From Verrucomicrobium spinosum DSM 4136 = JCM 18804 (GTDB lineage: Bacteria > Verrucomicrobiota > Verrucomicrobiia > Verrucomicrobiales > Verrucomicrobiaceae): DNA of 64,000 nt. Shown piece by piece: positions 34,187 through 48,403 of this stretch. The translations under genes were made by a program, and so were the position numbers. Below the pieces are notes generated by a model. That model was not told where the DNA came from, ran no database searches, and was given only the letters and a program-made list of their open reading frames with translations. The stretch is from assembly GCF_000172155.1 (NCBI RefSeq), contig NZ_ABIZ01000001.1:2575105-2639104 (forward strand), given 5' to 3'. The first letter of the stretch is position 1. Every line of letters begins with the position of its first letter.

Positions 34187-35723
34187 CTATTGCTTCTTCG
34201 TGCTGCCGGTTTCGGCGGCCCCCACGGGAACCGGTGTCGGCCACATATCTCGAATTGCCTCCACCGTGCGGTCCACAAGAATCTGGCCGCCCTCGGGTCC
34301 CACCTTGTTCGTGTGAGGCAGGCCGCTGTAGCTGCCGCCTTCAATAGCCTCGGGTGTGGGCAGGTACAATCCTGAACCGCAGGCCAGTTGGATCAAGAAA
34401 GTCTGCAAGGCCGGGCTACGGGACTTCATCTGGATACCGTAGTTCAAATACAGCTCGAAGGGATTGGTGGCGATCGCGACATCGCCCAGGCGGAGGGTGT
34501 GCAGTTCCATCTCGTAGTTTGGTGCCTTGTCGCCGACCTCGGCCCGTCGCACCACGTCACGCTCCCTCTCCAGCATGTTCAGCAAATAGGGGTTCAAGGT
34601 CCCCATGTTCTCGTACTGCGTGATCTGCATTTGGGCCTGCTCCTTCTCCCGCGGCAGGATGCGCCGCGGGGGCAGGGAGAGCGTTTCCACCCGATGTTGG
34701 AAGGGTAGGCTGGTGGTTATTTCCTGGCGTGCGATCTCCACGGTGTCCATCACGGCGGCCGTCAACCGGCGTGCGATCTCCTCCTTGCTGGTCAGGCCGC
34801 GGAGCTTGCGCATGCGCTCCTCCGCCTTTTTGCGGAACATGAGGTGCGGGCTCTGATCTCCCGCAGCGCTGATCCAGCCGAGGATGGTGAGGTTGGGCAC
34901 CCGCAATTCCCTGCGCAACTGCTCGCGGGTCTCATGCCAGAAGTCGGCATTGATCGCTTTGCGGCTCTCCACCTCCTGTGCCGGGCAGGCCAGATTCACC
35001 GCCAGTGCCTGCAGTTCCTGTTTCGCATTCCAGAAGAAGAGCATTTCCACGCCGTGGTCTTCTCCTCCCTCCATGCCGCGGAATCGGGCGTCATTCGTGT
35101 TGCCGTACATCTGTGCGCGTCCGTCAGCATACACTGCGCGACGATTCTGGCCCACTACGGCATGTCCGAGCGTCCAGCTTACTCCACCAGGTTGTCGGTT
35201 GTTCCAGGCTTGCTCTGCCACCTCCACCAGCCGGCTCAGCAGGAAAGCTGTGTACTCGTCCGGTTGCATCACCCCTTCCTTCGGTATCTCGTAGCGATTT
35301 GGGGTTTTCTCCAGTTCCAGTGTGTGTCACCGGGGCCGTGTGTGTATGAGTGGCATTCAGAAAGAGCTTCTTCAGATCCAGTCCCGGAAGCCTGCCTGCC
35401 AGATTCATGCGCAGGCGGTCCTGCAAGCCGTCGCGAATGGCCACCAGATCACAGGTGATCATGAGAGCCTGATCCACCGGCTGGTCGCCTTCCTTGGACT
35501 CAATAGCCAGGGCTGCTGCCACGATGGGTGTCTCGGCTTTGGTCGAAATCCTCGTGTTGAACTGCCCTGCAAGTGCCACGGGCCGGTCGGGGGTGATGGC
35601 CACCGTGGCGTGGCCAATGTGCAACTCTGCGGCGTGGAGGGCTCCGGGAAGCAATGAGATGCCCGTCAGGCCTAGCGTCAGCGACAGACGAAGAAGAGAG
35701 CGAAGAAGCGGGGTGGGGGACAT
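34187..35723 (-). pseudogene. Frameshifted neutral/alkaline ceramidase-like protein
   Basis: The ATG at 35723 gives a signal peptide (LSLTLGLTGISLLPGALHAA), then IGHATVAITPDRPVALAGQF and the active-site-type NATHTHTAP. Near 35300-35335, at TGTGTG runs, the match shifts frame; the other frame continues NRYEIPKEGVMQPDEYTAFL, GNTNDARFRGMEGGEDHGVE and MLFFWN to the stop at 34187. Joined, it would be about 512 residues, the usual length of this PVC-type ceramidase-like family (periplasmic amide hydrolases). LACPAQ stands where NxxCHP-type residues are common. It lies just downstream of the giant fusion that carries the same domain, so it may be its decayed paralogue. A dinucleotide-run indel could be real, phase-variable or a sequence error. 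Confidence 0.75.
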
Positions 35724-35757: not shown

Positions 35758-38700
35758 TTACTTCGGCACTTTCAAATAGGCGATGAGGTCGGCGAGAGAC
35801 TGCGGAGTCAGCAGGGCCTCCAGGCCGTCAGGCATGAGGGAGACATTGGCGCTCTGCAGGCGTTTCAGACCACTCCGCAGCAAGGTGCGGGCGCTGCCAT
35901 CGGCAAGGCGCAGGGTCAGGCTGTCGCCTGCTTCGATCGTGATCGCCCCGTACAGCTGGGTGCCGTCGTTTAGTTCACAGAAATAAGCCGTGAACCCGGG
36001 CTCAATGTTCGCGCTTGGATCCAGGATGGAGGTGAACAGCTTGTCAGCTGGATGCTGCACGACGGTGCGCAAGTCTGGTCCCACGGCCAATCCCGTGCCC
36101 TCCAGCTGATGGCAGGCCACGCAGGCCTGCGCAAAGACCTGACGACCACGCGTGGCGTCCCCTGGCAGGGTCAAGGCTGGGCGGAAACTGTCCAGCACCT
36201 TTTGGCGGGAGGAGGGTGCTCCCAGCAGCATGGATGTGCGTTCTCTCAGCAGCTTGTCCGGATGCTTGAGAAGACGGGACTGCCGCTGGATGTCCAGGCT
36301 GGCGGGCAACACCTGCCGCGTCTGAAGAGCGTCAAGCAGCCGGCGGGTTGCCTCAGGTTTCTCCAACACAAGATCCAGCACGACCTCCCGCTGGGCCGGG
36401 CTGTATTGCGCCCAACGTTCCAGCAGAGGCACGGCTATTTCATCACTCCCACTGGACCTCAGCGCTGCGGCGGCTGTCTTGAAATCGGCAATTCCGGTCC
36501 CGGGCTGCATCGTCTCCAGCAGCACGGTCACGGGCCCGGATGGCTTGTCATCGTAGGCCAGCAGCGCCGCAGCGGCAGCAATGCGCACCCTCAGGGGAGT
36601 GCTGGCGGCGTCTGCCATCCGGCGCAGCTTCTCCGCCAATGCCGTCTCAGTGGCGACAAGAGACTGCCAATCTGCAGTGCCAGTTTGGGTTGCGGCCAGG
36701 GCTGCCAGCCGGGCACCCTTCCGCTGGAGTGCCTGCCATGCTGAGCCCACTGCGGTCGTGTGTTTGACAGTGGTTTCGACGTCTGCGTCCGCCATCGCGC
36801 GATCCAGCAGAGGGGCCATCAGAAGGGAGAGGGCCTCAGCATTCCCTGCCCCTGCGGCGGTTTGCAGCAGGCCATCGGTCATGGCATCGGGCATTTTCGC
36901 CTTTTCTGAAGCTTTGGCCAGGGCTGTGAGGTGGGGCAGGGCGGAGCTCAAAACAGCAGCTCTTATCATCTCGATGTGGCCGGATGCCTGAGCGAGATGG
37001 ATCAGCGCCCTGGATGCCACGGGATCCTGCCAGCCCCACAACGTCGTGGCAAGCTGAAGCCGGACTTTGGCATTGGGGTCATTTGCCAGAAGGCATGCGG
37101 CGGCAATCACCTCCTGCTCCGGTCTGCCTTCTGCCATTTGCAGGCTATTCTCGCGCACCTCGTCTGCGGCATCCTGGAGTGACTTCACCAGCAGCCCAGG
37201 TTCTAGAGCCCTTTTTGCATGGAGGATCCAAAGCGCATGTGCCCGCGCCAGCGGAGACTTGGATTCACTCGCCAACTGCCCCAGTGACGGCAGCACAGAA
37301 CGATCCGTGCTCCACGCCAGGAGCATGTGCGCCTTGTCCCGCCGCCAGGCGTTGTCGCTCTCCAGCGTGGCGACAAGGTCCTTGGGAGATGCCTTGTCCA
37401 GAGCCACCTTGTCCGTTGAGGCGCGATCCTTCGCAAACACCCGGTAGATGCGACCTTTGTCATCTCCTTTGCGATAGTGAGGCAGGAGGGCGTTCTTTCC
37501 TGAATCCGGCAGCCACTGCGGGTGCTCGATCATGTAGCGGTACATGTCCGCCACCCAGAGCGCCCCGTCCGGCCCAGTGCGAACCATGACCGGGCGGCAC
37601 CAGCGGTCTTCACTGGCAAAGAAGTCGTGCTTGCCCGCCATGACCTGACGAGCTTTGAAGGAGGGGCCCTCCGGTGCGAGTTCGAGATGTTGCACGAGGT
37701 TGTGGAACGGTTCGCACACCATCGCCTGCTCCACCCCGGGGGCGGAGGCACCCATCAGCCGGGCATCTCCCACAATTGTGGCCGAGCACGCGGAGGTAAA
37801 ACGTCCTGCTTGATCGAAGCTGTGAAACCTCTGCTCCGGAGAGCTCACAGGGTACACGCGGGCGTTGGGCTCCGTCAGCAGCACCTTGGGCGAAGGCGGG
37901 GCGACATGAGGATTGCGCTGTAGGTGCCGGTCTTCCAAGGCGTAGTGCCAGATGGGGTTGCTGTTTTGGACGCCGAACCACCGGCCCCATTCATCGCGAT
38001 TGCGTCCGAATTGGGCAGGGCCGCTCAAGGGTTCCAGTTCGCCGGTGTCGGGCTTGAACCGGAAGTCGCGACTGCCCAAGGCGATGCGTCTGCCGGTCAG
38101 TGACGACGTGATTTGCACCTCCTTGCCATAGGCCGGGGTGTGTCCGCCATTGGCGCAATACACCCAGCCGTCCAGGCCCCAGCGCAGCCCGTTGACCCGC
38201 AGTTGCTGGTTGCCCTCCTGAAACCCGGAGAGCAACACGGTGCGCCCGCCGTCGTCCAACCTGCCGTCACCGTTCTCATCCCGTAGGAACAGCACTTCTG
38301 GAGCCGCTGTGATGAGGCAGCCATCCCGCCAGGTGAGAATACCGGTGGGGAAGCGCAGGCCGTCGGCAAAGAGCGTGGCCTTGTCATAGCGCAAGTCGCC
38401 ATCCGTATCCTCCAGGATGCGGACCCGCCCGCCCGGCTGGCCCTTGCCGTCCATGCCCAGCGGGTAGTCGGCCATCTCCACCACCCACAGCCTGCCTCTG
38501 GCGTCCCAGTCAAAGGCGACCGGATCCAGCACCAGGGGGTCCGCTGCGGCCAACGCCACCGTGAACCCCTCTGGCACGTGGATGCGCTTCAGGGACTCCT
38601 CCGGGTTCAGAGGGGGCGTCGCTTCTGCCGCCTTGGTCGTGTTTGGGGGTGTCGGGGCGGGGACTGGCTCGTTTGCCGTCACTGCGGGTGGCGGGGTCTG

Positions 38701-40845
38701 TCCTGAAAGCTTGTACCGGCTGGCTATTTCCTCGCCCGTGAGAGCCCGTGCATACACCGCGGCCTCGTCCACCTTGCCTTCCAGCGTGGCAAAGCGGTCG
38801 CAACGGCCTCCCAAAAACAGCTCGCTGGGGCCATCCGGAAGAGTGGAGGGCAGCTCGCCTTCCATCTCTGGATTCAAATTCCCGTTCAGGTACACACGCA
38901 CGCGATCTCCGTCCCGCGCCATCACAACATGGTGCCAGGCCCGGAGTGCCAGCCGGGTGGTGCCCCGCAGGAGTTGTTTCCTCTGGTTTCCATTGTAAAT
39001 GATCAACCGGCCTGTCGATTCCTTGTCCGCTGTGCCGCCGATCCCTACATGATCTCCGGCGCACTGGGCGTCTCCATCCTTTCCGCGGGAGAACAGGTAG
39101 CCCGTCACAGGGCGGGCATCGTCCGGCAGACCATTCCAGAACCACATCTCCACCGAGTAGGCCTTCGGCAAGGGTGGCAGCAGCGCCCGCACCCGTCCGC
39201 CCGCGAGGTGGATGGACCGGTTGATCTCTCCCTCTGAGAGTCCCGCTCCCTCGGGGCCGGGTAGATAGAGGGCCACGCCGTTCTCCATGGTGGCATCCAG
39301 TTCCACCTTGCCTTGCTCCTCCCGGGCATCAGGGAGTTGGGCCTCCTCCATGCGCCAGTAGCCCACCGGTCCGGCTGCCAGCACGGCCTTGGCGTAGGTG
39401 CCCGCGGGATGTTTCATCGAACGCCTTTTGCCCCCGCCCGCCTGCTCCAGGGCACCCAGCAGCTTCTCCACAATCCGCGGCTCGGCCTGCACCTCCAATC
39501 CCGCGGTGCGGGCGGGCCATGTGGTGTAGCCCCCTAGAAAGTGTTGCTCTGGCGGCGGGATGTAGCCTTCCGCGCCATTGGCCAGGCTGATGTTGAAGTG
39601 AGCCTTCAGGGGTGCCTGTGATTTGAGCTTCAGTCCGGTGAGGGCAAAAACCTCATTGGGAAAGGCCGCCACGGTCAGGTCGCCGATCCGCCAGGCCTGC
39701 AGGATGAGCTCGGTCCTTTGTTTCTCGTGCAGATGGAGCGCCTCCTTCGCATAGATCTCCGGCTTGCTCTGAGGGAGACGATTGCCCAGTGAAGCCACCA
39801 CCTGGCGCGCCCAGGCCAGCCGGTCGCCATCCGGTGTGCGGTAGTGCAGCGGCAGGTGGGTTTCCACGACGTTCAGGGGCACATGATTTACGTACTTCAC
39901 CTTGGCCAGGGCCTCGGCGGCGCGACCTGCCACCTCTTCCGCGTATTGGGTCATGCTCACGTTTTTCGCGGGCTTGGCGTAGTCCCTCCACATCAGGTCG
40001 CCGCTAGTGCCCTGGGTCATCATGGCTACGAAGGGGCCTTCGCCCGAAGTCTGGCCCAGACGTTTTGCCACCTCCCGGCAAAACACACCGTAGTAGTCGG
40101 CAGATACCGCCGTGGCTCCAAAGTAATGCTGCGAGTAGTTGGCTAGTACCGCCAGAGGTTTGCCCTCCGGCGTCTGCACGGACACCACGCTTAACTGGGG
40201 GTCCACCGGGCCGGAGGGGCCGACATGTTGGGGACTTTGATGCCCAGGGTGCATCATGGCCCGCACCGTGGGTTGGCCAAACGGATCGGCCGGAACCTTG
40301 TCGGGACGGTAGATCCAGCGCCTGTTATGGGTGTGATCCCAGTCATCTACGGCGGACCAGCCTATCCTTGCGGGTTGGAGGGCTTTTACCGCCGCCGTCA
40401 GGGCTTCGCTAATCTTACCTGGCAACCACGCGGCGTACTCGGGATCCTCACGGCTGCCCAGGCACCCCAAGGCGGAGGGAGCGCTGTGCGTGTGGGTGGC
40501 ACTGACCAGCATGCGGCTCAGGGGGATGCCGGTCTCCATGGAGGCCTGCGCCTTCGCCTTGTCGATCAACTCCCGCGACATCATGCAGGTGTCCACCACG
40601 CAGAGGATGGCTGTCACCTTTCCATCATCCAAGGCCAGCGCCCGGGCATGTAGCCGATCATTGGCTTGTTGGGCCAGGCGTTCTGTGAAGTTGCCGTTCA
40701 CTCGCACGGGGAACTTCAGGGGCGTGACATCCACCGCCACCGCCCCAGCCCTGAAGACGGGGGTGGGCTCCGGGGGAGCGGCAGCCCAGACGGTCGAACA
40801 CGCCAGTAGTGTCGCCAGGGGCAGGGAGAGAGGGGACGGATTCAT
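35758..40845 (-). CDS. 1695-residue fusion: ceramidase-like, LamG, PVC dehydrogenase, HEAT, cytochrome c
   Basis: Signal peptide 1-22. Residues 30-470: neutral/alkaline ceramidase-like domain with VSATHTHSAP (114-123) and LANYSQHYFGATAVSADYYG. Residues 483-713: LamG-type concanavalin-fold domain (AGPVGYWRMEE, YSVEMWFWNG, AWHHVVMARDGDRVRVYLNG, KVDEAAVYARALTGEEI). A Pro/Thr linker (715-747). Residues 748-1138: PVC-type membrane-bound dehydrogenase beta-propeller (FDWDARGRLWVVEMADYP, LEDTDGDLRYDKA, RVNGLRWGLDGWVYCANGG, MVRTGPDGALWVADMYRY). Residues 1152-1545: HEAT-like helical repeats. Residues 1565-1695: cytochrome c with CVACH at 1575-1579. The last three parts are a known PVC combination, thought to oxidise sugars in the periplasm; the ceramidase plus LamG front end is the unusual part. 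Neighbours: a FadR-type regulator upstream and a broken ceramidase-like gene downstream. Confidence 0.85.
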   Translation of the reverse strand: MNPSPLSLPLATLLACSTVWAAAPPEPTPVFRAGAVAVDVTPLKFPVRVNGNFTERLAQQANDRLHARALALDDGKVTAILCVVDTCMMSRELIDKAKAQASMETGIPLSRMLVSATHTHSAPSALGCLGSREDPEYAAWLPGKISEALTAAVKALQPARIGWSAVDDWDHTHNRRWIYRPDKVPADPFGQPTVRAMMHPGHQSPQHVGPSGPVDPQLSVVSVQTPEGKPLAVLANYSQHYFGATAVSADYYGVFCREVAKRLGQTSGEGPFVAMMTQGTSGDLMWRDYAKPAKNVSMTQYAEEVAGRAAEALAKVKYVNHVPLNVVETHLPLHYRTPDGDRLAWARQVVASLGNRLPQSKPEIYAKEALHLHEKQRTELILQAWRIGDLTVAAFPNEVFALTGLKLKSQAPLKAHFNISLANGAEGYIPPPEQHFLGGYTTWPARTAGLEVQAEPRIVEKLLGALEQAGGGKRRSMKHPAGTYAKAVLAAGPVGYWRMEEAQLPDAREEQGKVELDATMENGVALYLPGPEGAGLSEGEINRSIHLAGGRVRALLPPLPKAYSVEMWFWNGLPDDARPVTGYLFSRGKDGDAQCAGDHVGIGGTADKESTGRLIIYNGNQRKQLLRGTTRLALRAWHHVVMARDGDRVRVYLNGNLNPEMEGELPSTLPDGPSELFLGGRCDRFATLEGKVDEAAVYARALTGEEIASRYKLSGQTPPPAVTANEPVPAPTPPNTTKAAEATPPLNPEESLKRIHVPEGFTVALAAADPLVLDPVAFDWDARGRLWVVEMADYPLGMDGKGQPGGRVRILEDTDGDLRYDKATLFADGLRFPTGILTWRDGCLITAAPEVLFLRDENGDGRLDDGGRTVLLSGFQEGNQQLRVNGLRWGLDGWVYCANGGHTPAYGKEVQITSSLTGRRIALGSRDFRFKPDTGELEPLSGPAQFGRNRDEWGRWFGVQNSNPIWHYALEDRHLQRNPHVAPPSPKVLLTEPNARVYPVSSPEQRFHSFDQAGRFTSACSATIVGDARLMGASAPGVEQAMVCEPFHNLVQHLELAPEGPSFKARQVMAGKHDFFASEDRWCRPVMVRTGPDGALWVADMYRYMIEHPQWLPDSGKNALLPHYRKGDDKGRIYRVFAKDRASTDKVALDKASPKDLVATLESDNAWRRDKAHMLLAWSTDRSVLPSLGQLASESKSPLARAHALWILHAKRALEPGLLVKSLQDAADEVRENSLQMAEGRPEQEVIAAACLLANDPNAKVRLQLATTLWGWQDPVASRALIHLAQASGHIEMIRAAVLSSALPHLTALAKASEKAKMPDAMTDGLLQTAAGAGNAEALSLLMAPLLDRAMADADVETTVKHTTAVGSAWQALQRKGARLAALAATQTGTADWQSLVATETALAEKLRRMADAASTPLRVRIAAAAALLAYDDKPSGPVTVLLETMQPGTGIADFKTAAAALRSSGSDEIAVPLLERWAQYSPAQREVVLDLVLEKPEATRRLLDALQTRQVLPASLDIQRQSRLLKHPDKLLRERTSMLLGAPSSRQKVLDSFRPALTLPGDATRGRQVFAQACVACHQLEGTGLAVGPDLRTVVQHPADKLFTSILDPSANIEPGFTAYFCELNDGTQLYGAITIEAGDSLTLRLADGSARTLLRSGLKRLQSANVSLMPDGLEALLTPQSLADLIAYLKVPK

Positions 40846-40884: not shown

Positions 40885-41610
40885 TCAGTTGCCAGCGGAT
40901 CTCTTGCGCGCTGCCCGCTTCTTCGGCGGTAGAGCCAGTTCATCCAGGGTGGTGTCCAGATGCTGTCGCATCGCGGACTCTGCACCCGCTGCATCACCTC
41001 CCAGTACAGCCTTCAGAATGATGCCGTGCTCGACGATGGCGGACTCGGTGGTTACCCGGCTGTAGCCGCGGGACAGGCTGGCTTTGAGAAGGTCTGTGAG
41101 CGACAGGAGCATCATGGCCGAGACTTGATTCCCTGAGGCCGAGGCCAGCGCATGGTGAAAGGCCATGTCCGCCTCAATGGCGGCCTTCAGGGTGTCGGCC
41201 GCCGCGAGACGGTCATACACTTCCTGCAAGTGGGTGCGCTGTTCTTGAGTGGCGTTCAGCGCCGCCAGACGCGCGTGTTCCGGCTCCAGCATCAGACGCA
41301 CCTGCACGAGCTGGCGCAAGCGTTCCTGCGCATCCGGCACCAGGAGTTCCACCGCCTGGGTCAGAGGCTTGTGCAGATTGTCTGTGGAACGCATGCCCAC
41401 CCCTTGACGCACCTCCAGCAAACCTTGCGTCTCCAGGCGCTTTACCGCCTCCCGTACCACGCTGCGACTGACACCAAGCTGTTCCGAGAGGGCCTGCACC
41501 GCTGGCAAGCGACGTCCTCCCTCTGCATCCTCCCCGCGCGTCAACTCCGCCAGGCGGGCGGCAACTTTCTCCACCAGCGACGGCGACCGGGAAATGGCGG
41601 TGATTTTCAT
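40885..41610 (-). CDS. GntR-family regulator, FadR subfamily (FCD domain)
   Basis: 241 residues from ATG 41610. Winged helix 10-75: LVEKVAARLAELTRGE, RLPAVQALSEQLGVSRSVVREAVKRL, ETQGLLEVRQGVGMR. FCD ligand domain 85-225 with the metal-site acidic and His residues (EADMAFHHALASASGN, IVEHGIILKAVLGGDAAGAESAMRQHLD). Basic tail KKRAARKRS. A TGGTC-T-GACCA palindrome 46 bp before the start fits the FadR-subfamily operator, so it probably represses itself and, through co-transcription, the 1695-residue fusion 40 bp downstream. Ligand likely a small carboxylate or sugar acid by family. Confidence 0.88.
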   Translation of the reverse strand: MKITAISRSPSLVEKVAARLAELTRGEDAEGGRRLPAVQALSEQLGVSRSVVREAVKRLETQGLLEVRQGVGMRSTDNLHKPLTQAVELLVPDAQERLRQLVQVRLMLEPEHARLAALNATQEQRTHLQEVYDRLAAADTLKAAIEADMAFHHALASASGNQVSAMMLLSLTDLLKASLSRGYSRVTTESAIVEHGIILKAVLGGDAAGAESAMRQHLDTTLDELALPPKKRAARKRSAGN

Positions 41611-41899
41611 GAGAGAGGGAGCGGTAATAGGAAGGGAATGGGGGTGATCATCTGATGGTCTGACCAGTTGAGGAGGCTTAGAGTACGGAGAGGTGGAGGG
41701 GCGTCTTTCAGCCCTTGGGTGGGAGACGCCAGACTGCCAGACGCCAAACATCAGACTTGAGGCCCGTTGTGCGAGGCAGACACAAGACTGGAAGACCCAA
41801 GATATAAGACTTGAGCTCGCGCGCTGCCGGAGCGTCGGGGTTCGAAGTGGCTGGGAGGTCAATTCTAGAACCCCCATCAACTGATGGCTGGATGTTCTC
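41611..41899. other. Promoter and low-complexity region upstream of the FadR-type gene
   Basis: Holds the operator at 41656-41666 and a tract of AGACGCCAGACTGCCAGACG, ACACAAGACTGGAAGAC type (41728-41816). No gene. Confidence 0.5.
41656..41666. promoter_or_regulatory. FadR-subfamily operator TGGTC-T-GACCA
   Basis: A perfect 5+1+5 palindrome matching the family pattern TGGTnnnACCA seen for FadR, PdhR and LldR-type regulators. It sits 46 bp upstream of the FadR-type gene on its promoter side. The extended form on the minus strand is AACTGGTCAGACCATCA. Confidence 0.65.
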
Positions 41900-42290
41900 C
41901 AGTGCGTCAGTGCGTCAGAGTGGGGCGGCTTGGAAGTGGCGGGGGTTTGGCGGATGTGTGTCAATATCCCCAGCAGGGCGATCCGGCCCCCTCTGGTCGG
42001 TTGATGTCCGCGCCAGGTGGAGTACCGCTTTTAAGCGGAATCAGGATGCGCTGAGCCCTTGAGGTTGCCCGCAGTAAAACGCGTCCGGCCAGCGGGATGA
42101 GGGGGCGCGTCATGGGCCGTTCGGGGCGTGATTCCGCTTAAAAGCGGTACTCCAACCCTGCTGCGGAGCGGGGATGTGGGTTGGTCGGGCCCGTCGGGGA
42201 GGAGCCTGAGGGGTTGACGGTCATCAAGCCGGGAAACGACCTCATGGGACCCTTGGCACGGACCGGGACACGAATGTCCCTCGCTCCTCT
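41900..42290 (-). repeat. Inverted copy of the 469-bp repeat unit
   Basis: The reverse complement matches the array at 32858-34172 over about 390 bp, including both inverted 29-mers (GGAGTACCGCTTTTAAGCGG at about 42019 and its complement at about 42131) and the GGGACATTC...TCCCGG start. At its outer end are CAGTGCGTCAGTGCGTCAG strings. With the array it brackets the 34187-41610 segment. Confidence 0.88.
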
Positions 42291-42303
42291 TACTGATTCC
42301 GGG

Positions 42304-43188
42304 TCAGCCCCAATGCGCTGCGATCTTCTTTTTCAAGAACGCGACACTGCGCTCCAGTTGATCCATCCCTTCGATGCCGTCTTCGATGCTGATCCAGCCA
42401 TCGAATCCTTTGCTCTTCAGTTCGGTGAAGATCGCATCATAGTCGTTCAAGCCTTTGCCGATCTCGCCATGGCGCAGGCGTTTGGCGTAGCCGGCGGAGC
42501 CGCCTTCCTCTTTGCGCAGATCTTCAATGGTTCCTTCAATCAGGTAGCGATCACTGGCGTGCATGGTGACCACGCGGTGGGACACGCGGCGCAGGAGTTC
42601 CAGCGGATCTTCTCCAGCCAGATAGGTGTTGCTGGGATCATAGTTCACGCCAAAGGCCGGGTGGTCGATGCGGTCCACCAGTTTGCAGAAGACATCCATT
42701 TTCTGGGCAAACTCCGGGTAGTCCCAGAAGTCGTCCTTGTAGTGGTTCTCGATGATGAGCGTGATGTCTCGTTCCTGCGCATAGGGCAGACAGGCTTCGA
42801 TGCATTCCGCCGCCAGGCTTACGCCCTGATCCATGGTCAACTCCGGGCGACGCTGCCCGGAGAGCACCCGGCAATACGAGCCGCCCAGAGCGTGGGTCAT
42901 GTCGATCCAGCCCTTCTGCTTCGCAATTTGTGCCTCACGGAACGCCGCGTCCGGGTGCGTAAAGTCGGGTGAGCAGCACATCATGGGGATCACGAGACCG
43001 AGATCCTCCACTTGCTTGCGAAAGCCCGCCCAGTTGCGCTCGTTCGCCATCTCCAGAAACCCGGCGTACCATTCCAGACCCTGTACGTCAAGCTTGGACG
43101 CAAGGCCGATCCACTCAGACAGTTTCATCGATCCGTCTTTGCAGAGCGCCTGCATGAAGGCTTTGGGGAATGCGGCAAGTTTGGGCAT
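42304..43188 (-). CDS. Sugar phosphate isomerase/epimerase-like TIM-barrel protein
   Basis: 294 residues from ATG 43188 (MPKLAAFPKAFMQALCKDGS). AP-endonuclease-2-type TIM barrel used by xylose-isomerase-like, hydroxypyruvate-isomerase and tagatose/ribulose epimerase families. Metal-ligand candidates: E in LIIENHYKDD, D and N in FGVNYDPSNTYLAG, H in VVTMHASDRYL, E in GWISIEDG. The substrate cannot be told. Last gene of the catabolic run that begins at 48168, 69 bp after the SDR gene; an AT-rich string (GAATGATGAATGATGAATG) fills the gap. Confidence 0.82.
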   Translation of the reverse strand: MPKLAAFPKAFMQALCKDGSMKLSEWIGLASKLDVQGLEWYAGFLEMANERNWAGFRKQVEDLGLVIPMMCCSPDFTHPDAAFREAQIAKQKGWIDMTHALGGSYCRVLSGQRRPELTMDQGVSLAAECIEACLPYAQERDITLIIENHYKDDFWDYPEFAQKMDVFCKLVDRIDHPAFGVNYDPSNTYLAGEDPLELLRRVSHRVVTMHASDRYLIEGTIEDLRKEEGGSAGYAKRLRHGEIGKGLNDYDAIFTELKSKGFDGWISIEDGIEGMDQLERSVAFLKKKIAAHWG

Positions 43189-43257
43189 GGGAGAAAAATT
43201 AGGAATGATGAATGATGAATGAGGAATTAGGAATGAGCTGAAACCAACGCCCACCTC

Positions 43258-44064
43258 TTACTGCTTATCGCTCACCGGGATGGTTGTGGCGTCCTTGGGC
43301 GGGTTGCGGCCGATGAAGGGATGCTGCTCCAGATCCACGACCTGACCGCTGATGGGTCCGCTTTCGTCCGCCAGCCAGTACACCGCCGCGACTGCGATTT
43401 CGTCCGGCCAGAGGATGCGTCCCGCAGGAGCGTAAACACGTGGTACGTGAGTGTACCAGTCCTCAGGCAGGCCGTGTTCCTTCTTGCGCTGGGCTTCGTT
43501 TTCGGTGAGCACCCAGCCGGGGTTGATCTGGTTCACTCGCACATGATCTTCGCGCATGAGAGTGTCTCCGAGGTTGCGGGTGAGCGTCATGAGCGCGCCC
43601 TTGGAAATGCTGTACGGCAGCAGATTGGGCTCACCGCTCCAGGCATTCACAGAGCCGATGTTCAATACCGCACCGCGGTTCTCCCTGAGCTGGGGCAGTG
43701 CGGCCTTGATCAAAGCAAAGGGGGCCACCGTGTTGACCTCCATCATTTTGCGGAAGAAGGCGAGATCCGTGGTGTGGAGGTTGGATGCCACCACCATGGC
43801 GGCGTTGTTCACGACCGCGTCCAGCTTGGCAAAGCTCTTTACGGCCAATTCCACGAGGCGTTCGGGTGCGCCTTCTGCCGTGAGATCCTCGATGTGCAGC
43901 GTCGCATTCTCCGCTCCCAATTCCTCGATCACCTGCGCCCCCAGATCCGCCTCCAGTCCGTGGATTACGACCTTGGCTCCTTCAGCGACGAAACGCTTGG
44001 CCATGGCCTTGCCAATGCCGGTGCAGCTTCCTGTGACGATGATGACTTTGTCTTTGAGGCGCAT
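43258..44064 (-). CDS. SDR-family oxidoreductase
   Basis: 268 residues, classical short-chain dehydrogenase. Cofactor motif TGSCTGIGKAMAKRF near residue 11, NNAAMV (90s), catalytic Ser in NIGSVNAW, YSISK (Tyr and Lys), and NQINPGWVLT. His or Gly at the end of beta2 (VVIHGLEADL) leaves NAD versus NADP preference open. In this operon it probably oxidises a hydroxyl of the sugar acid or polyol. Followed by the TIM-barrel isomerase; a 103-bp gap with an AT-rich repeat separates it from the FAD oxidoreductase. Confidence 0.88.
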   Translation of the reverse strand: MRLKDKVIIVTGSCTGIGKAMAKRFVAEGAKVVIHGLEADLGAQVIEELGAENATLHIEDLTAEGAPERLVELAVKSFAKLDAVVNNAAMVVASNLHTTDLAFFRKMMEVNTVAPFALIKAALPQLRENRGAVLNIGSVNAWSGEPNLLPYSISKGALMTLTRNLGDTLMREDHVRVNQINPGWVLTENEAQRKKEHGLPEDWYTHVPRVYAPAGRILWPDEIAVAAVYWLADESGPISGQVVDLEQHPFIGRNPPKDATTIPVSDKQ

Positions 44065-44078
44065 AGGTTGAATGCAGT

Positions 44079-44108
44079 GAAAAGTTAAGAGTAAAAAGTG
44101 ATAAGTGG
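44079..44108. repeat. AT-rich repeat GTGAAAAGTTAAGAGTAAAA, copy A
   Basis: GCAGTGAAAAGTTAAGAGTA then AAAAGTGATAAGTGGG; nearly the same as 47412-47452. Both are in gaps of the same operon and are far less GC-rich than the genes. Confidence 0.7.
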
Positions 44109-44167
44109 GATCCGAAGCAGAGAAGTTGCTCGAGTGCCACCTTTTGGCGGAACACTACAGAAGGCGA

Positions 44168-45544
44168 CTATGCCGCATCAGTAAACGGCCCTGCATTTAC
44201 GGTGGTGAGAACCTCCCGCACTTTTTGGCCATCCAGTTCGGCCACATTGGTGCTGTTCTTCAAGCTAAGGGCCGCGGCGCAGCCGGCGGCTTCGCCGAGG
44301 GCCATGGCGGTAACGGTGACTCGTGTGGAGGCATGAGCGCCGCGGGTGGCGGAGTGGCAACGGCCAGCCACGAGGAGATTCTCGATCTTCTGCGGGACCA
44401 AGGAGCGATAGGGGATGTCGTAGGGGCCGGGTTGGACCTTCTCGGGCTTGAAGTCGTTGGCACTGCCCAGAGTGGTCTTGTTGGGGTGAAGGTCCAGATA
44501 CCAGCAACCAGTGGCGATGGCGTCCGGGAAGCGACGACCTCCCATGATTTCCTTTTCATTCAGCACGTGCTGGCCAATGAGCCGCCGGGATTCACGCACG
44601 CCTATCCAGGGATAGGCTTCGAGGAAATAGGAATCTGCAAAGGCTGGGATGTCGCGCTTCCAGGCCTTGTGCATGGCCAGGGCGTCGGCGCGCCCCTGCA
44701 TTTCCGCGCGGGAGAGGTCGGCGGCGTCGGTGGGGTTGGCTGGCACACGGATGCCGTGCACATACACCTCATCCTTGCCGAAGAGGAACATCACTCCGGG
44801 GCCGTAGAAGTAAGGCAATTCTCCAAGCGCCTGAGCTTTCACCAGAGACTCGCGGCAGAGTCCGCCGATGCCCTTGGCGGGCTTCACGCCGCCGATGCGG
44901 AAGTGGAGGGTCAACGGCTGCACCTCGGCGCTTTGTTCAGTGGGTGTGCCGGCCCAGGCCGCGACATCGGCATCGCCGGTGCAGTCAATCACGACCTTGG
45001 GGCGCACGGTTACCAGGCCGTCTTTGTTTGCGATGGTGACATTGCGGATCCGGCCGTTGGACGACTCCGCCTCGCAGGCAAAGGAGTTGTACAACACTGT
45101 GAGCCGGTCTTTTTGCGCCTGCAGCTCCCGGTCCAGTAGTACCTTGAACTCAAACGTGTTGGGGATCGTCGGGTTGTGTGGTTTGATCACCTGCGCGTCA
45201 GGCGCGCACACTCCGGTCTTGGACAAGAGTTCCAGGGCGATGCCCTTCACCACCACGCGGTGGTCGCCAATGTTGGAGATGCCATCGAAATAGGGCAACC
45301 CCACGCTGGTGATGATCCCGCCTGCAAAGGGGGCCTTTTCCACCAGCAGGGTTCGTGCGCCATGTCGTGCAGCGCTCAGTGCCGCGGCGGTGCCCGCACA
45401 GCCACCGCCACAAACCAGCACGTCTGTTTCAATGGTTTTGCGACCGGTGCCTGCGCTGGTTCCTGCCGCACCCTCCGCCGCCAGCAAAGGCCCTGCCATT
45501 GTCGCCGCCACGGAGGAAGCTACAAATGTCCGTCGTGTGTTCAT
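44168..45544 (-). CDS. FAD-dependent oxidoreductase with Tat signal
   Basis: 458 residues from ATG 45544. MNTRRTFVASSVAATMAGPL has the twin-arginine pattern, so the folded flavoprotein is probably exported. Rossmann FAD site VLVCGGGCAGTAAALSAARHG, EKAPFAGG, and a C-terminal LLVAGRCHSATRGAHASTRV block; internal PKVVIDCTGDADVAAWAG. This matches the FAD_oxidored family common in PVC bacteria, often near sugar-catabolic genes. Cytosolic SDR and ADH partners are in the same operon, so one oxidation may occur in the periplasm. An in-frame upstream start is less likely because it hides the Tat motif. Confidence 0.85.
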   Translation of the reverse strand: MNTRRTFVASSVAATMAGPLLAAEGAAGTSAGTGRKTIETDVLVCGGGCAGTAAALSAARHGARTLLVEKAPFAGGIITSVGLPYFDGISNIGDHRVVVKGIALELLSKTGVCAPDAQVIKPHNPTIPNTFEFKVLLDRELQAQKDRLTVLYNSFACEAESSNGRIRNVTIANKDGLVTVRPKVVIDCTGDADVAAWAGTPTEQSAEVQPLTLHFRIGGVKPAKGIGGLCRESLVKAQALGELPYFYGPGVMFLFGKDEVYVHGIRVPANPTDAADLSRAEMQGRADALAMHKAWKRDIPAFADSYFLEAYPWIGVRESRRLIGQHVLNEKEIMGGRRFPDAIATGCWYLDLHPNKTTLGSANDFKPEKVQPGPYDIPYRSLVPQKIENLLVAGRCHSATRGAHASTRVTVTAMALGEAAGCAAALSLKNSTNVAELDGQKVREVLTTVNAGPFTDAA

Positions 45545-45582
45545 GGAGAAGTGTGTATTCCTAAACCAGCCGCACAGCGGCA

Positions 45583-45626
45583 TCTCAACCAACGAAGTGT
45601 CTCAACAGCGAAGCGTCTCAACTTCC
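45583..45626 (-). repeat. Short copy of the GGTTGAGACGCT repeat
   Basis: Minus-strand reading gives GTTGAGACGCTTCGCTGTTG and AGACACTTCGTTGGTTGAG, related to the 18-bp array near 16.6 kb. It lies between the ADH and FAD oxidoreductase genes. Confidence 0.6.
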
Positions 45627-46658
45627 TTACACCGGCTTAAGTACAGATTTCACGACCTCGCCGCTGTGCATCTTCTCGAAGGCCTCGTGCCACTCGGTCA
45701 CCGCCCAGACGCCGCCGATGATGGGTTTGACGTCCAGTTGACCGCCTGCCAGCAGGGCGATCACTCGCTCCCACACTGGCCAGTTGTGGCTGAAGCTGCC
45801 TTGCAGGGTCACGTTCTTCTGCACGAGGGGGTCGATGGAGAAGCCCAGTGGCTGCGGGCCCCAGCCCACCTTGGTGATCCAGCCGTTGGGGCGGACGAGC
45901 TGCAGTGCAATCTTCAGTGTGATGCTGGAGCCGGCGGCATCGATGACGCAATCGGCACCCAGGCCATCTCGCCGCTTGGCCCATTCCGTCGCGTCGCCGA
46001 TGATGCCTTCGCAGCCATACAATTTGGCGATCTCCAGACGCTGACGATCATTCTCCAAGCCCACCAGGGCGACCTCAGCCCCACACAGGCGGGCCACGGC
46101 CGCGCACAGAATGCCTATGGTGCCGGGGCCCAGTACGATCACGCGATCCCCCGGCTTTAGACGGCTGTTCTCCACCACGGCATTGTAAGCCACACAGCAA
46201 GGTTCCGTAAGGCAGGCTTGTTCAAAGGCCAGCTTGTCCGGCACTCGGTGGAGGCAGCGGGAGGGTACACGCACGTAGCGGGTCATGGCACCGTTCACAC
46301 CGTAGCCGAAACCCTTGCGTGTGGGGTCCAGGTTGTAGAGCCCCTGGCGACTCATGGGATTGTTGATGTCGATGACCGCTGCGGTCTCGCTCACCACGCG
46401 GTCACCTTCCTTCCAGTTGATCACGTTCTTGCCGGTCTCCACAATGTGGCCGCCAAACTCATGACCCAGTACCACCGGGTAGTTCACCGGCCAGCTATGG
46501 TCGGCTGTCCATTGATGGAGGTCACTGCCACAGACGCCCACATTGGCGACCTCCAGCAGCACATCGTCGTCCCCAATCTCCGGGGCGAGGATCTCACGAA
46601 TCTCAACGGACCCCTTCTCCGGGGCATAGTTCACAACAGCAGCGGAAGCGGTCTTCAT
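45627..46658 (-). CDS. Zinc-dependent medium-chain alcohol dehydrogenase
   Basis: 343 residues from ATG 46658 (MKTASAAVVNYAPEKGS). Catalytic-zinc motifs GVCGSDLH and GHEFGGHIVE, NAD-site VLGPGTIGILCAAVARLCGA with Glu in VGLENDRQR. The region that normally carries four structural-zinc cysteines (about 85-115) reads VIDINNPMSRQGLYNLDPTR and has none, so only the catalytic zinc is expected. Related to threonine/sorbitol/galactitol-type dehydrogenases. Likely oxidises a polyol or sugar acid in the pathway. 46 bp downstream of the HPS-like gene. Confidence 0.87.
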   Translation of the reverse strand: MKTASAAVVNYAPEKGSVEIREILAPEIGDDDVLLEVANVGVCGSDLHQWTADHSWPVNYPVVLGHEFGGHIVETGKNVINWKEGDRVVSETAAVIDINNPMSRQGLYNLDPTRKGFGYGVNGAMTRYVRVPSRCLHRVPDKLAFEQACLTEPCCVAYNAVVENSRLKPGDRVIVLGPGTIGILCAAVARLCGAEVALVGLENDRQRLEIAKLYGCEGIIGDATEWAKRRDGLGADCVIDAAGSSITLKIALQLVRPNGWITKVGWGPQPLGFSIDPLVQKNVTLQGSFSHNWPVWERVIALLAGGQLDVKPIIGGVWAVTEWHEAFEKMHSGEVVKSVLKPV

Positions 46659-46704
46659 AAATGCGGAATGAGGAATTCTGAATGTGATGATCTGATGGCA
46701 AGCG

Positions 46705-47409
46705 TTATGCGCTAAACCCGGGAACCACCTGGGAGTGCACGGCCTCACAGATCAGGCGGAGTGATCCTTCGAGGTCGCCATCTGCCGTCTTGAAGGCGTC
46801 TGCGTCCACCGTGAGGGGTGCGCCCAGCACCACGAGCGGCGCACCGTACTGGGGACACTGGATGGCCTGTTCCAGAGTGAGTCCGCCCACGGCCTGAACG
46901 GGAATCTTTACGGCCTGCACGACCTCGCGCAGCTGATCGAGCGGGCTGGGCATGCGTTGACCGGCGGCGGCGAGGCCACGGCGTTCGTCATAGCCGATGT
47001 GGTGGATCACATAGTCGCAGCCCAGATCCTCCAGCATCTTGGCGCCTGCCACCATGTCCGGGCAGCCAAGGTTATCACCCATAACTTTGACATTGTGATC
47101 CCTGCCGGCCTTCACCACACACTTGATCGTCTCTTCATGAGCACGGGCCATGACCACCACGTGGGTGGCTCCGGCTTGCGCCATCATTTCCGCTTCCAGA
47201 TAGCCACCGTCCATCGTCTTGAGGTCGGCCACGATCGGGATGCCGGGGAACGAGGCTCGCAGAGCGCGCACGCCGTGCAGACCTTCCGCCAGAATCAGCG
47301 GCGTGCCAGCCTCCAGCCAGTCCACGCCAGCCCGGATCGCCAGGGCTGCGGTTTTGAGCGCTTCGTCAATATTGGTGAGGTCCAGTGAGATTTGAACGAT
47401 GGGTTTCAT
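46705..47409 (-). CDS. HPS / OMP-decarboxylase family enzyme
   Basis: 234 residues. The beta-barrel pattern is that of 3-hexulose-6-phosphate synthase and 3-keto-L-gulonate-6-phosphate decarboxylase: ISLDLTNIDEALKTA, WLEAGTPLILAEGLHGVRAL, the signature VADLKTMDGG (Asp-x-Lys-x-x-Asp), HVVVMARAHEETIK, VIHHIGYDERRG and QAVGGLTLEQA. Members either condense formaldehyde with ribulose 5-phosphate or decarboxylate a 3-keto sugar-acid phosphate. No 6-phospho-3-hexuloisomerase is adjacent, while dehydrogenases and an isomerase are, which favours sugar-acid decarboxylation (inference). Confidence 0.8.
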   Translation of the reverse strand: MKPIVQISLDLTNIDEALKTAALAIRAGVDWLEAGTPLILAEGLHGVRALRASFPGIPIVADLKTMDGGYLEAEMMAQAGATHVVVMARAHEETIKCVVKAGRDHNVKVMGDNLGCPDMVAGAKMLEDLGCDYVIHHIGYDERRGLAAAGQRMPSPLDQLREVVQAVKIPVQAVGGLTLEQAIQCPQYGAPLVVLGAPLTVDADAFKTADGDLEGSLRLICEAVHSQVVPGFSA

Positions 47410-47411
47410 TG

Positions 47412-47452
47412 GTGAGCAGTGAAAAATTAAGAGTAAAAAGTGAAAAGTGGGG
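47412..47452. repeat. AT-rich repeat GTGAAAAATTAAGAGTAAAA, copy B
   Basis: GAGCAGTGAAAAATTAAGAG then TAAAAAGTGAAAAGTGGGG, the partner of 44079-44108. It fills the gap between the GntR gene and the HPS-like gene. Confidence 0.7.
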
Positions 47453-47466
47453 AAGGGGGCGATAGT

Positions 47467-48168
47467 TCAGGCCTCTGAGTCCATTCCCAGTTTGTAGTTG
47501 AGCTCGCCCCAGTCTTCGATGTGCTGGCGCATGGCCTGTCCGGCCTTGTCAGCATCGCGGGCCAGGATGGCAGTGAGGATGGGGCGGTGACCACGCAGGG
47601 CGTGATCGGTCACGGGAATGTCGTGTGCTTGTTGCCAGCGATGAGCTTTGGCCAGCAGGAGCTCAAACTGGGCGCGCACAGTCCGCCAGCAGGTGAGGAG
47701 TCGTGAGTGGCCCGCAGCCTGCATGATCAGGTCGTGGAAGGCGACATCCAGCCGGCTGATGTTGGTCACATCCGTCTCCTGCTCCAGAGCCTGCACGTTC
47801 TCTTGCAGGGACGCAGCGGTATCTGCGGTCAGTTTCTGGGCCGCCAACCGGGCGCTCATGACCTCCAGTGTCTGGCGGAGGGTCACGATTTCCCGCACAT
47901 CTTCGGCGCTGAACTGGCGCACTTGGCAGCGTCCACGGTGGTCGAACTCCACGACCCCGTCGTGCTCAAGCTCCACCAAGGCTTCCCGCACGGGCACGCG
48001 GCTCACAGCCAGTTGGGCGGCCAGCTTAGGTTCGCTGATGGCACTGCCCTCGGCAATCTGACCAGAAATGATCGCCCGGCGTACCTGGTCCGCCACCTCC
48101 TCCGCCAGGGTGAAGCGGCGGACGGGTTGCAGGCCTTGTTCGGGAGCGCTGGCGTCGAGGGAAATCAT
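47467..48168 (-). CDS. GntR-family regulator, FadR subfamily (FCD domain)
   Basis: 233 residues from ATG 48168. Winged helix: LAEEVADQVRRAIISGQIAE, ISEPKLAAQLAVSRVPVREAL, ELEHDGVVEFDHRGRCQVR. FCD domain with RLDVAFHDLIMQAAGHSRLL, HALRGHRPILTAILARDADKA and MRQHIEDW, giving the metal-binding Asp/His set. First gene of the catabolic run, so probably its local regulator. The perfect palindrome ACTGTATACAGT lies 18 bp before its ATG. Ligand by family: a sugar acid or other small carboxylate. Confidence 0.88.
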   Translation of the reverse strand: MISLDASAPEQGLQPVRRFTLAEEVADQVRRAIISGQIAEGSAISEPKLAAQLAVSRVPVREALVELEHDGVVEFDHRGRCQVRQFSAEDVREIVTLRQTLEVMSARLAAQKLTADTAASLQENVQALEQETDVTNISRLDVAFHDLIMQAAGHSRLLTCWRTVRAQFELLLAKAHRWQQAHDIPVTDHALRGHRPILTAILARDADKAGQAMRQHIEDWGELNYKLGMDSEA

Positions 48169-48186
48169 CACAACGGGAATTTCAAA

Positions 48187-48198
48187 ACTGTATACAGT
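48187..48198. promoter_or_regulatory. 12-bp perfect palindrome ACTGTATACAGT, probable operator
   Basis: Lies 18 bp upstream of the GntR-type gene. Its TATACA/TGTATA also reads as a -10-like box, with TTGTAC (about 48215 on the minus strand) 19 bp away, so binding would block the promoter. GntR-type operators often have a TGTATACA core. Confidence 0.55.
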
Positions 48199-48403
48199 AT
48201 ATCTGAGTGGAGTGTACAACGATCGTCAAGCTCTTTTCTATCGGAGAGAGTGGGGGGCGGGCTCCAAGCATCCACAACATTTGGGCCAAGCGATTCAGCC
48301 TGTGACGGACAGAAACACTTCAAACCCAGGTGAGTATTTTCGCCCACATTCCCGTCTCACTGGCTGGCACTCTTGGTGACCCTATACTTTTCCCGTCCAT
48401 CCT

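Follow-up and report, generated by a model that had tools for sequence, protein, structure and literature searches.

A secreted protein of Verrucomicrobium spinosum joining a ceramidase-fold head and a LamG domain to a PVC-type propeller, HEAT and cytochrome c module

Introduction

A single open reading frame in the genome of Verrucomicrobium spinosum DSM 4136 (assembly GCF_000172155.1; one contig, NZ_ABIZ01000001.1, of 8,220,857 bases) encodes a protein of 1695 amino acids in which a neutral-ceramidase-fold head and a LamG domain are followed by a propeller, a HEAT-repeat region and a PVC-type cytochrome c domain. This combination is found in many Verrucomicrobia and Planctomycetes, and comparison of the sequences suggests that these bacteria may deacylate and oxidize a carbohydrate-like substrate on one protein. 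The reading put forward here, that of an extracytoplasmic zinc deacylase coupled to the oxidation of one carbohydrate-containing substrate, is a tentative one to which we give a little short of an even chance. The anatomy and conservation of the protein are firm; the labels "amide hydrolase" for the head and "dehydrogenase" for the propeller are inferred. For the terms searched in open-licence PubMed Central papers, no title or abstract opening among those listed describes the fusion.

Architecture of the fusion protein

All coordinates refer to the window, the 64,000-nucleotide stretch of the contig that was analyzed. The fusion gene occupies 35758..40845 on the (-) strand, as do all of its features listed below, and reads in one frame from an ATG, a frame that recurs in relatives. 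A preliminary description of this DNA had proposed five parts in a continuous frame of 1695 codons, and the open reading frame together with the Pfam and NCBIfam scans agrees with that proposal and with the order of the parts. Specifically, a signal peptide of the Sec type, judged by eye (aa 1-23; 40777..40845), precedes the head (aa 24-475; 39421..40776), which is matched by Ceramidase_alk (PF04734) over aa 56-283 at 25.1 bits, below the Pfam cut-off of 32.1. The LamG or concanavalin-fold domain (aa 480-715; 38701..39408) is matched by Laminin_G_3 (PF13385) over aa 560-708 at 59.4 bits, over the cut-off of 27.6, and is followed by a Pro/Thr-rich linker (aa 716-745; 38611..38700) with pLDDT below 50 at model residues 700-719. 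The propeller (aa 748-1140; 37426..38604) is recognized by DUF7133 over its whole length (481.9 bits, over cut-off) and by TIGR02604 over aa 760-1139 (257.8 bits, cut-off 122.2). The HEAT-repeat region (aa 1141-1555; 36181..37425) yields a HEAT_2 match at aa 1219-1298 of 20.7 bits, below the cut-off of 27.7, and the cytochrome c domain (aa 1562-1692; 35770..36162) is matched by Cytochrom_C over aa 1565-1690 in the Pfam scan and by TIGR02603 over aa 1562-1692 at 125.8 bits, over its cut-off of 68.15. The full-protein domain search thus recovers every part, two of them (Ceramidase_alk and HEAT_2) below cut-off. Both motifs named in the earlier reading, THTHSAP at aa 117-123 (40477..40497) and CVACH at aa 1575-1579 (36109..36123), were located in the translation as described.

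The ceramidase-fold head

When a profile of 19 head sequences was searched against PDB sequences up to E 1, two matches were returned and both are neutral ceramidases: 2zws (E 1.6e-26) and 4wgk (E 2.5e-22). Structural comparison gave the same two proteins, a model of aa 24-1145 (pLDDT 76.6, pTM 0.59) aligning over the head with 2zws at VIA Z 36.0 across 386 residues (3.6 A, 17% identity) and with 4wgk at Z 33. The zinc ligands of human neutral ceramidase, which we take to be His194, His303, Glu540 and Tyr579, align with H118, H240, E398 and Y428 of the head, positions that by this alignment are invariant in 81 of 81 rows. Residue numbers in the head were counted by hand from the profile alignment, in which THTHSAP aligns with the ceramidase HTH and places H118 at a zinc-ligand position and H120 at a catalytic position. 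According to a review (PMC6952831), human His196, Arg257, Tyr579 and Tyr591 are critical for neutral ceramidase catalysis; H120, R175, Y428 and Y440 align with these residues and are likewise invariant in 81/81 rows. The loop carrying Y428 and Y440 is of low confidence in the model (pLDDT below 50, model residues 406-425), and the zinc site therefore rests on alignment. On the question raised in the preliminary description of whether a structural model would hold the zinc ligands, the ligand positions are accordingly present by alignment, and the loop with the two active-site tyrosines is modeled with low confidence.

A further position separates the head from its homologs. The hexapeptide serine, Ser354 in the human enzyme, is M285 here; across the 81 rows this position varies among M, Q, A, W, L and H and is in no case S. 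Among four relatives scanned with Ceramidase_alk, L073 (54.7) and L059 (41.7) pass, L098 (30.7) falls below the cut-off, and L086 scores 70.7 over two stretches, the better of which lies in a C-terminal extra copy. Taken together, these comparisons support the head as a distant homolog of neutral ceramidase with zinc-site and catalytic positions kept, and likely a zinc hydrolase. That it is a true ceramidase acting on sphingolipids would agree with the fold and the active-site positions, but it is very improbable, given that the hexapeptide serine is absent, that identity to 2zws is 17% and that both the fusion and its sister proteins bear domains of carbohydrate type. Somewhat better placed, and still rather unlikely, is a zinc esterase (O-deacetylase) in place of an amidase: loss of the amidase hexapeptide serine, the SASA esterase that lies beside the fusion gene of L063 and the GDSL domains of some sisters would all suit such an activity, but the catalytic positions named from the amidase are invariant. 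The reading preferred here is of a zinc deacylase for which an N-acyl substrate is more probable than an O-acyl one.

The LamG domain and the domain junctions

The nearest solved fold to the LamG domain is that of AbnA (VIA Z about 22; 21.8-22.3, the highest value being 22.3), and lower structure matches include domains with the widespread lectin fold from sialidases and from clostridial neurotoxins. Domain 4 of AbnA (5hon), solved with arabino-oligosaccharide, shares the concanavalin fold at Z 21.8 over 195 residues (2.4 A); because identity is 20% and the fold is common, sugar binding by LamG is a possibility suggested by this likeness. Some relatives carry an extra 250-320 aa between head and LamG, and L073 and L098 have two Laminin_G_3 stretches each.

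Structure prediction of the two junctions, proposed in the earlier description, gave different outcomes for each: the first (aa 470-490) is modeled with confidence, in blocks of 86-95, and the second, Pro/Thr-rich, is predicted to be disordered at aa 723-742. From this pairing it follows that head and LamG may form one unit, flexibly tethered to the back of the protein.

The HEAT region and the cytochrome c domain

In a model of aa 740-1695 (pLDDT 86.4, pTM 0.88) the HEAT region is helical, and its profile matches alphaRep repeats. The cytochrome profile matches Kustd1711 (7zs0) at E 2.3e-20. For structure prediction and column counts two sets served, each with the window added: A1, with 31 of the 33 plain fusion loci, and A2, with 40 of the 50 complete backs. 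Both cysteines and the histidine of CxxCH, as well as Met1671 (35833..35835), are invariant in 41/41 rows. Met1671 aligns with M292 of Kustd1711, counted by hand; PMC11791136 identifies the Met as distal heme ligand and describes a calcium beside the heme, coordinated by backbone carbonyl groups, water and a heme propionate. These alignments support a c-type heme site in the back, with CxxCH and a putative distal Met.

Distribution and selective constraint

The front half is present in 46 of 57 relative genomes, this genome counted, and in at least 28 of those it lies within a frame of at least 1500 aa; frame length alone does not establish a propeller, which was found in the same frame in 18 of 20 short loci fetched from relatives. 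From the scan of genome contigs 80 loci were kept and searched in all frames with five protein pieces. With the window included, 56 of 81 head rows join head and propeller in a single frame, 16 have head and LamG without a back, one (L027) is split over two frames, and eight are undecidable, seven of these stopping at a contig end and one (L102) having been assigned by hand. The head rows span three phyla, namely Verrucomicrobiota, Planctomycetota and, by one bin, Hydrogenedentota, and among named relatives Verrucomicrobium sp. BvORR034 (94% in the head) and BvORR106 (90%) stand nearest.

These counts bear on whether two genes were joined here by chance or by an artefact. A frame break does occur nearby, in the second ceramidase-fold gene downstream, but the fusion is present in 56/81 rows from many assemblies and three phyla, which leaves artefact or chance with a negligible share of the probability; an assembly artefact in particular is ruled out by recurrence of the same frame in relatives. 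The concern voiced in the preliminary description, that the front half might be confined to separate genes and joined here by a sequence error, is not borne out by this count of front and back in one gene.

Since head and LamG stand alone in 16/81 rows, the head can evidently do without the back. On a head tree of 81 rows (the window and 80 loci) with two paralogs as outgroup, the label "head-LamG only" requires 13 changes, at least nine of them forced by well-supported branches, and the rows concerned are scattered among fused ones. The label "fused" requires 18 changes (at least 12 forced), compared with 22.9 for shuffled labels, seven of 500 shuffles being as low; rows cut by a contig end were counted as not fused, which inflates the change number for that label. 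Gain or loss of the back has happened repeatedly. In even draws of genomes, scored over the first eight candidates per genome so that counts are lower bounds, the front half was found at E 1e-100 in at least 4 of 194 Verrucomicrobiota, the one long frame among them being that of this genome, and in at least 12 of 199 Planctomycetota, where five frames were long and one of the five belongs to the centre genome. The fusion is widespread, not general.

Strong purifying selection acts on four of the parts: when the three Verrucomicrobium copies are compared, dN/dS comes to 0.07-0.13 in head and LamG, 0.05-0.06 in the propeller and 0.04-0.05 in the cytochrome. In the HEAT region it is 0.29-0.32. 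Identity between the window and L025 is 54.5% in HEAT and 92.2% in the propeller.

Neighboring genes

Downstream of the fusion lies a second ceramidase-fold gene (34187..35723, (-)), detected by tblastn with the L025 copy at 79% and 92% identity. In the window it is broken into two frames, 35124-35723 and 34187-35272, with an overlap at about 35325-35344, and it is one frame in L024 and L025; the break represents either a recent pseudogene or a sequence error. In L024 and L025 the second gene likewise sits next to the fusion, a relative with 58% identity adjoins the split gene pair in L027, and another, more distant ceramidase-fold gene stands beside the fusion in L028. Additionally, L048, L054 and L086 carry a C-terminal extension 22-24% identical to the second gene, and the one that was scanned (L086) matches Ceramidase_alk. 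Active-site positions vary in these proteins: the second protein of L024, L025 and L027 is without the His240 position and has Ser at the hexapeptide position, and in the extensions of L048, L054 and L086 the Arg175 position is Ser. The repeated company of different ceramidase-fold domains with the redox module strengthens the functional link between them.

Upstream, a GntR/FCD regulator (40885..41964, (-); Pfam FCD and GntR) ends 39 bases from the fusion, and a relative of it is directly upstream of the fusion in L024 and L025. Across 40885-48219 (-), two such regulators flank genes for an SDR, a xylose-isomerase-like barrel, an FAD oxidoreductase, a zinc alcohol dehydrogenase and an OMPdecase-family protein, resembling, by their predicted families, sugar or sugar-acid catabolism. 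No neighbor is constant among the loci compared, and a constant operon partner was rejected. The commonest neighbor cluster (DUF1501 by its scanned member, L031) occurs at 13 of 80 loci, many of which have short flanks. In L031, L039, L045 and L070 a frame of this cluster lies 15-56 bases downstream of the fusion on the same strand. At three loci (L063, L064 and L078) the fusion frame ends inside the start of another open frame's overlap with it, and the one scanned, that of L063, is a SASA carbohydrate esterase. Promoter and terminator scans returned nothing above shuffles.

The propeller and the question of its cofactor

The best structural matches of the propeller are carbohydrate dehydrogenases, led by AA12 (6h7t; VIA Z 27.2 over 298 residues, 3.9 A). 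At the level of sequence the picture is different. A propeller profile searched against PDB sequences up to E 10 matched no PQQ dehydrogenase, PF07995 is absent among the Pfam matches of the fusion up to E 0.1, and profile-profile alignment of the propeller with GSDH (hhalign) reached a probability of 1.8% in local and 0.3% in global mode, lending no support; the multiple alignment of propeller and GSDH hence rests on a short shared motif.

That alignment, in which eight fusions and 12 GSDH proteins stand with 20 sisters from this genome, is remote and places the His of most TIGR02604 rows one column from the His of GSDH. The latter corresponds to the catalytic His of soluble glucose dehydrogenase; it is present in 12/12 GSDH rows, and in 8/8 fusions there is no His in that column or adjacent to it. 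The preceding column holds Gln881 of the fusion, invariant in 41/41 rows (40 complete backs and the window), and among the sisters it is His in 12 of 20, Asp within His-Asp-His in five and Gln in three. Of the sisters with Gln, L170 carries a His one column further on, at the GSDH position, and L164 has a 3-keto-disaccharide hydrolase domain. R948-N949 had been considered as the GSDH Arg-Asn pair and was dropped, as column counts do not bear it out.

Canonical PqqC was found in none of 57 relatives and none of 20 carriers, many carriers being metagenome bins and possibly overlapping with the relatives. Control queries matched nowhere in those searches, and the working control is a survey of 288 genomes of the phylum, in which the PqqC model scored over cut-off in six, all of one other family, and below cut-off in two more. 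GSDH (PF07995) matches occur in 35 of 38 genomes (this genome and relatives), and 11 aligned proteins keep the catalytic His. Because such homologs occur in relatives where PqqC was not found, its absence is indecisive; the cells may import PQQ or rely on a different cofactor. The missing His and the failure to find PqqC nonetheless lower the case for a plain PQQ dehydrogenase, and PQQ as cofactor of the propeller is doubtful.

The same observations invite the view that the propeller of this lineage is no dehydrogenase, serving instead in ligand or metal binding or as a lactonase or other hydrolase, with the heme serving another partner. It would account for Gln881 in all 41 rows with no neighboring His, for the 20 carriers in which PqqC was not found, for the lack of a PQQ dehydrogenase in the profile search and for the beta-propeller lactonase RPA3624 and DFPase, which come next among the structural matches at Z 22. 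However, AA12 and the soluble sugar dehydrogenases (6h7t, 1c9u, 2g8s) score higher at Z 23-27, the heme site is kept in every row examined, and PF07995 homologs with His exist where PqqC was not found. This view is unlikely, the strongest of the alternatives though it is, and a redox role of the back remains the likely one.

Sister proteins on the same module

This genome contains 52 TIGR02604 match segments, in places several per protein, of which 27, the fusion included, are over cut-off singly, indicating some thirty proteins with an unexplained redox chassis. The sisters examined are the proteins of the 20 best TIGR02604 matches besides the fusion, not a random draw. ThuA, 3-keto-disaccharide hydrolase or GDSL domains are present in eight of them, together with NPCBM in one case, and the fusion thereby appears as one of a set of head-swapped proteins. 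Another of the 20 has FG-GAP repeats, and in L164 and L175 PF06439 (DUF1080) is fused to DUF7133. At L174:529-4677 (+), ThuA, GDSL and DUF7133 are joined to a plastocyanin-like copper domain in a sister protein that lacks CxxCH, a hint that the domain accepting the electrons can be exchanged as well.

A study of the Caulobacter lactose 3-dehydrogenase LacABC (PMC9007349) proposes that a periplasmic DUF1080 (PF06439) hydrolase works with that enzyme. The hydrolase-bearing sisters, among them L164 with its Gln, fit a possible periplasmic sugar-oxidizing role of this kind. A broader proposal is that DUF7133-HEAT-cytochrome c constitutes a general PVC extracytoplasmic redox chassis with swapped hydrolase heads, that it permits oxidative glycan disassembly on a single polypeptide with no self-made PQQ, and that the Gln branch, the fusion among it, uses another cofactor; taken as a whole this is speculative and on balance improbable, if far from negligible. 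A recognizable hydrolase tied to the chassis offers a way to learn which substrates the chassis acts upon, and its cofactor becomes a testable question through the Gln/His split and the missing PqqC.

Proposed function

From the fold matches and from the heme and active-site positions that are kept, we infer two activities, a class of substrate and a coupling between them. The protein would be a secreted, probably periplasmic, multi-domain enzyme whose LamG domain would hold a carbohydrate-containing substrate while the head, as an active zinc hydrolase, would remove an acyl group. The propeller would then, or beforehand, oxidize the sugar moiety, perhaps yielding a 3-keto compound or a lactone, and electrons would pass from the propeller to the covalent heme, carried by the HEAT region, and on to the respiratory chain. 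Within this genome the protein would be one of several in which a hydrolase head sits on the DUF7133-HEAT-cytochrome chassis. Also in favor of this reading are the strong selection on head and propeller, the hydrolase domains of eight sisters and the SASA esterase frame of L063; against it stand the sub-cut-off Ceramidase_alk score, the low-confidence tyrosine loop, the heads that occur with LamG but no back and the want of a constant neighbor. The preliminary description had the protein deacylate a substrate and then oxidize the product; the ceramidase-homologous head and the c-type heme site uphold that idea in part, and Met at the hexapeptide Ser position, the missing catalytic His and the PqqC result weigh against it.

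Comparison with known proteins

The fusion resembles several characterized systems and departs from each. Firstly, the head shares with neutral ceramidase (PF04734; 2zws, 4wgk) its fold and the aligned zinc-ligand and catalytic positions, and unlike that enzyme it is without the hexapeptide serine, has a sub-cut-off Pfam score and is fused to LamG and a redox module. Secondly, LamG and domain 4 of AbnA have a common fold at low identity. Thirdly, the propeller fold is shared with the PQQ sugar dehydrogenases, AA12 and soluble, a shared fold that shows no function; in contrast to them, the fusion has neither the catalytic His nor a match at the sequence level, and PqqC was not found in carriers. 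Fourthly, CxxCH and the distal Met are shared with the C-terminal domain of the diheme cytochrome c Kustd1711, whereas the fusion has one heme domain, not two. Finally, the fusion belongs with the PVC-type heme-binding CxxCH proteins defined by TIGR02604 and TIGR02603, for which, as for DUF7133, it scores over cut-off and whose CxxCH it possesses; unlike other such proteins, it bears a ceramidase-fold and LamG front, and it has the Gln-for-His replacement common to only three of the 20 sisters.
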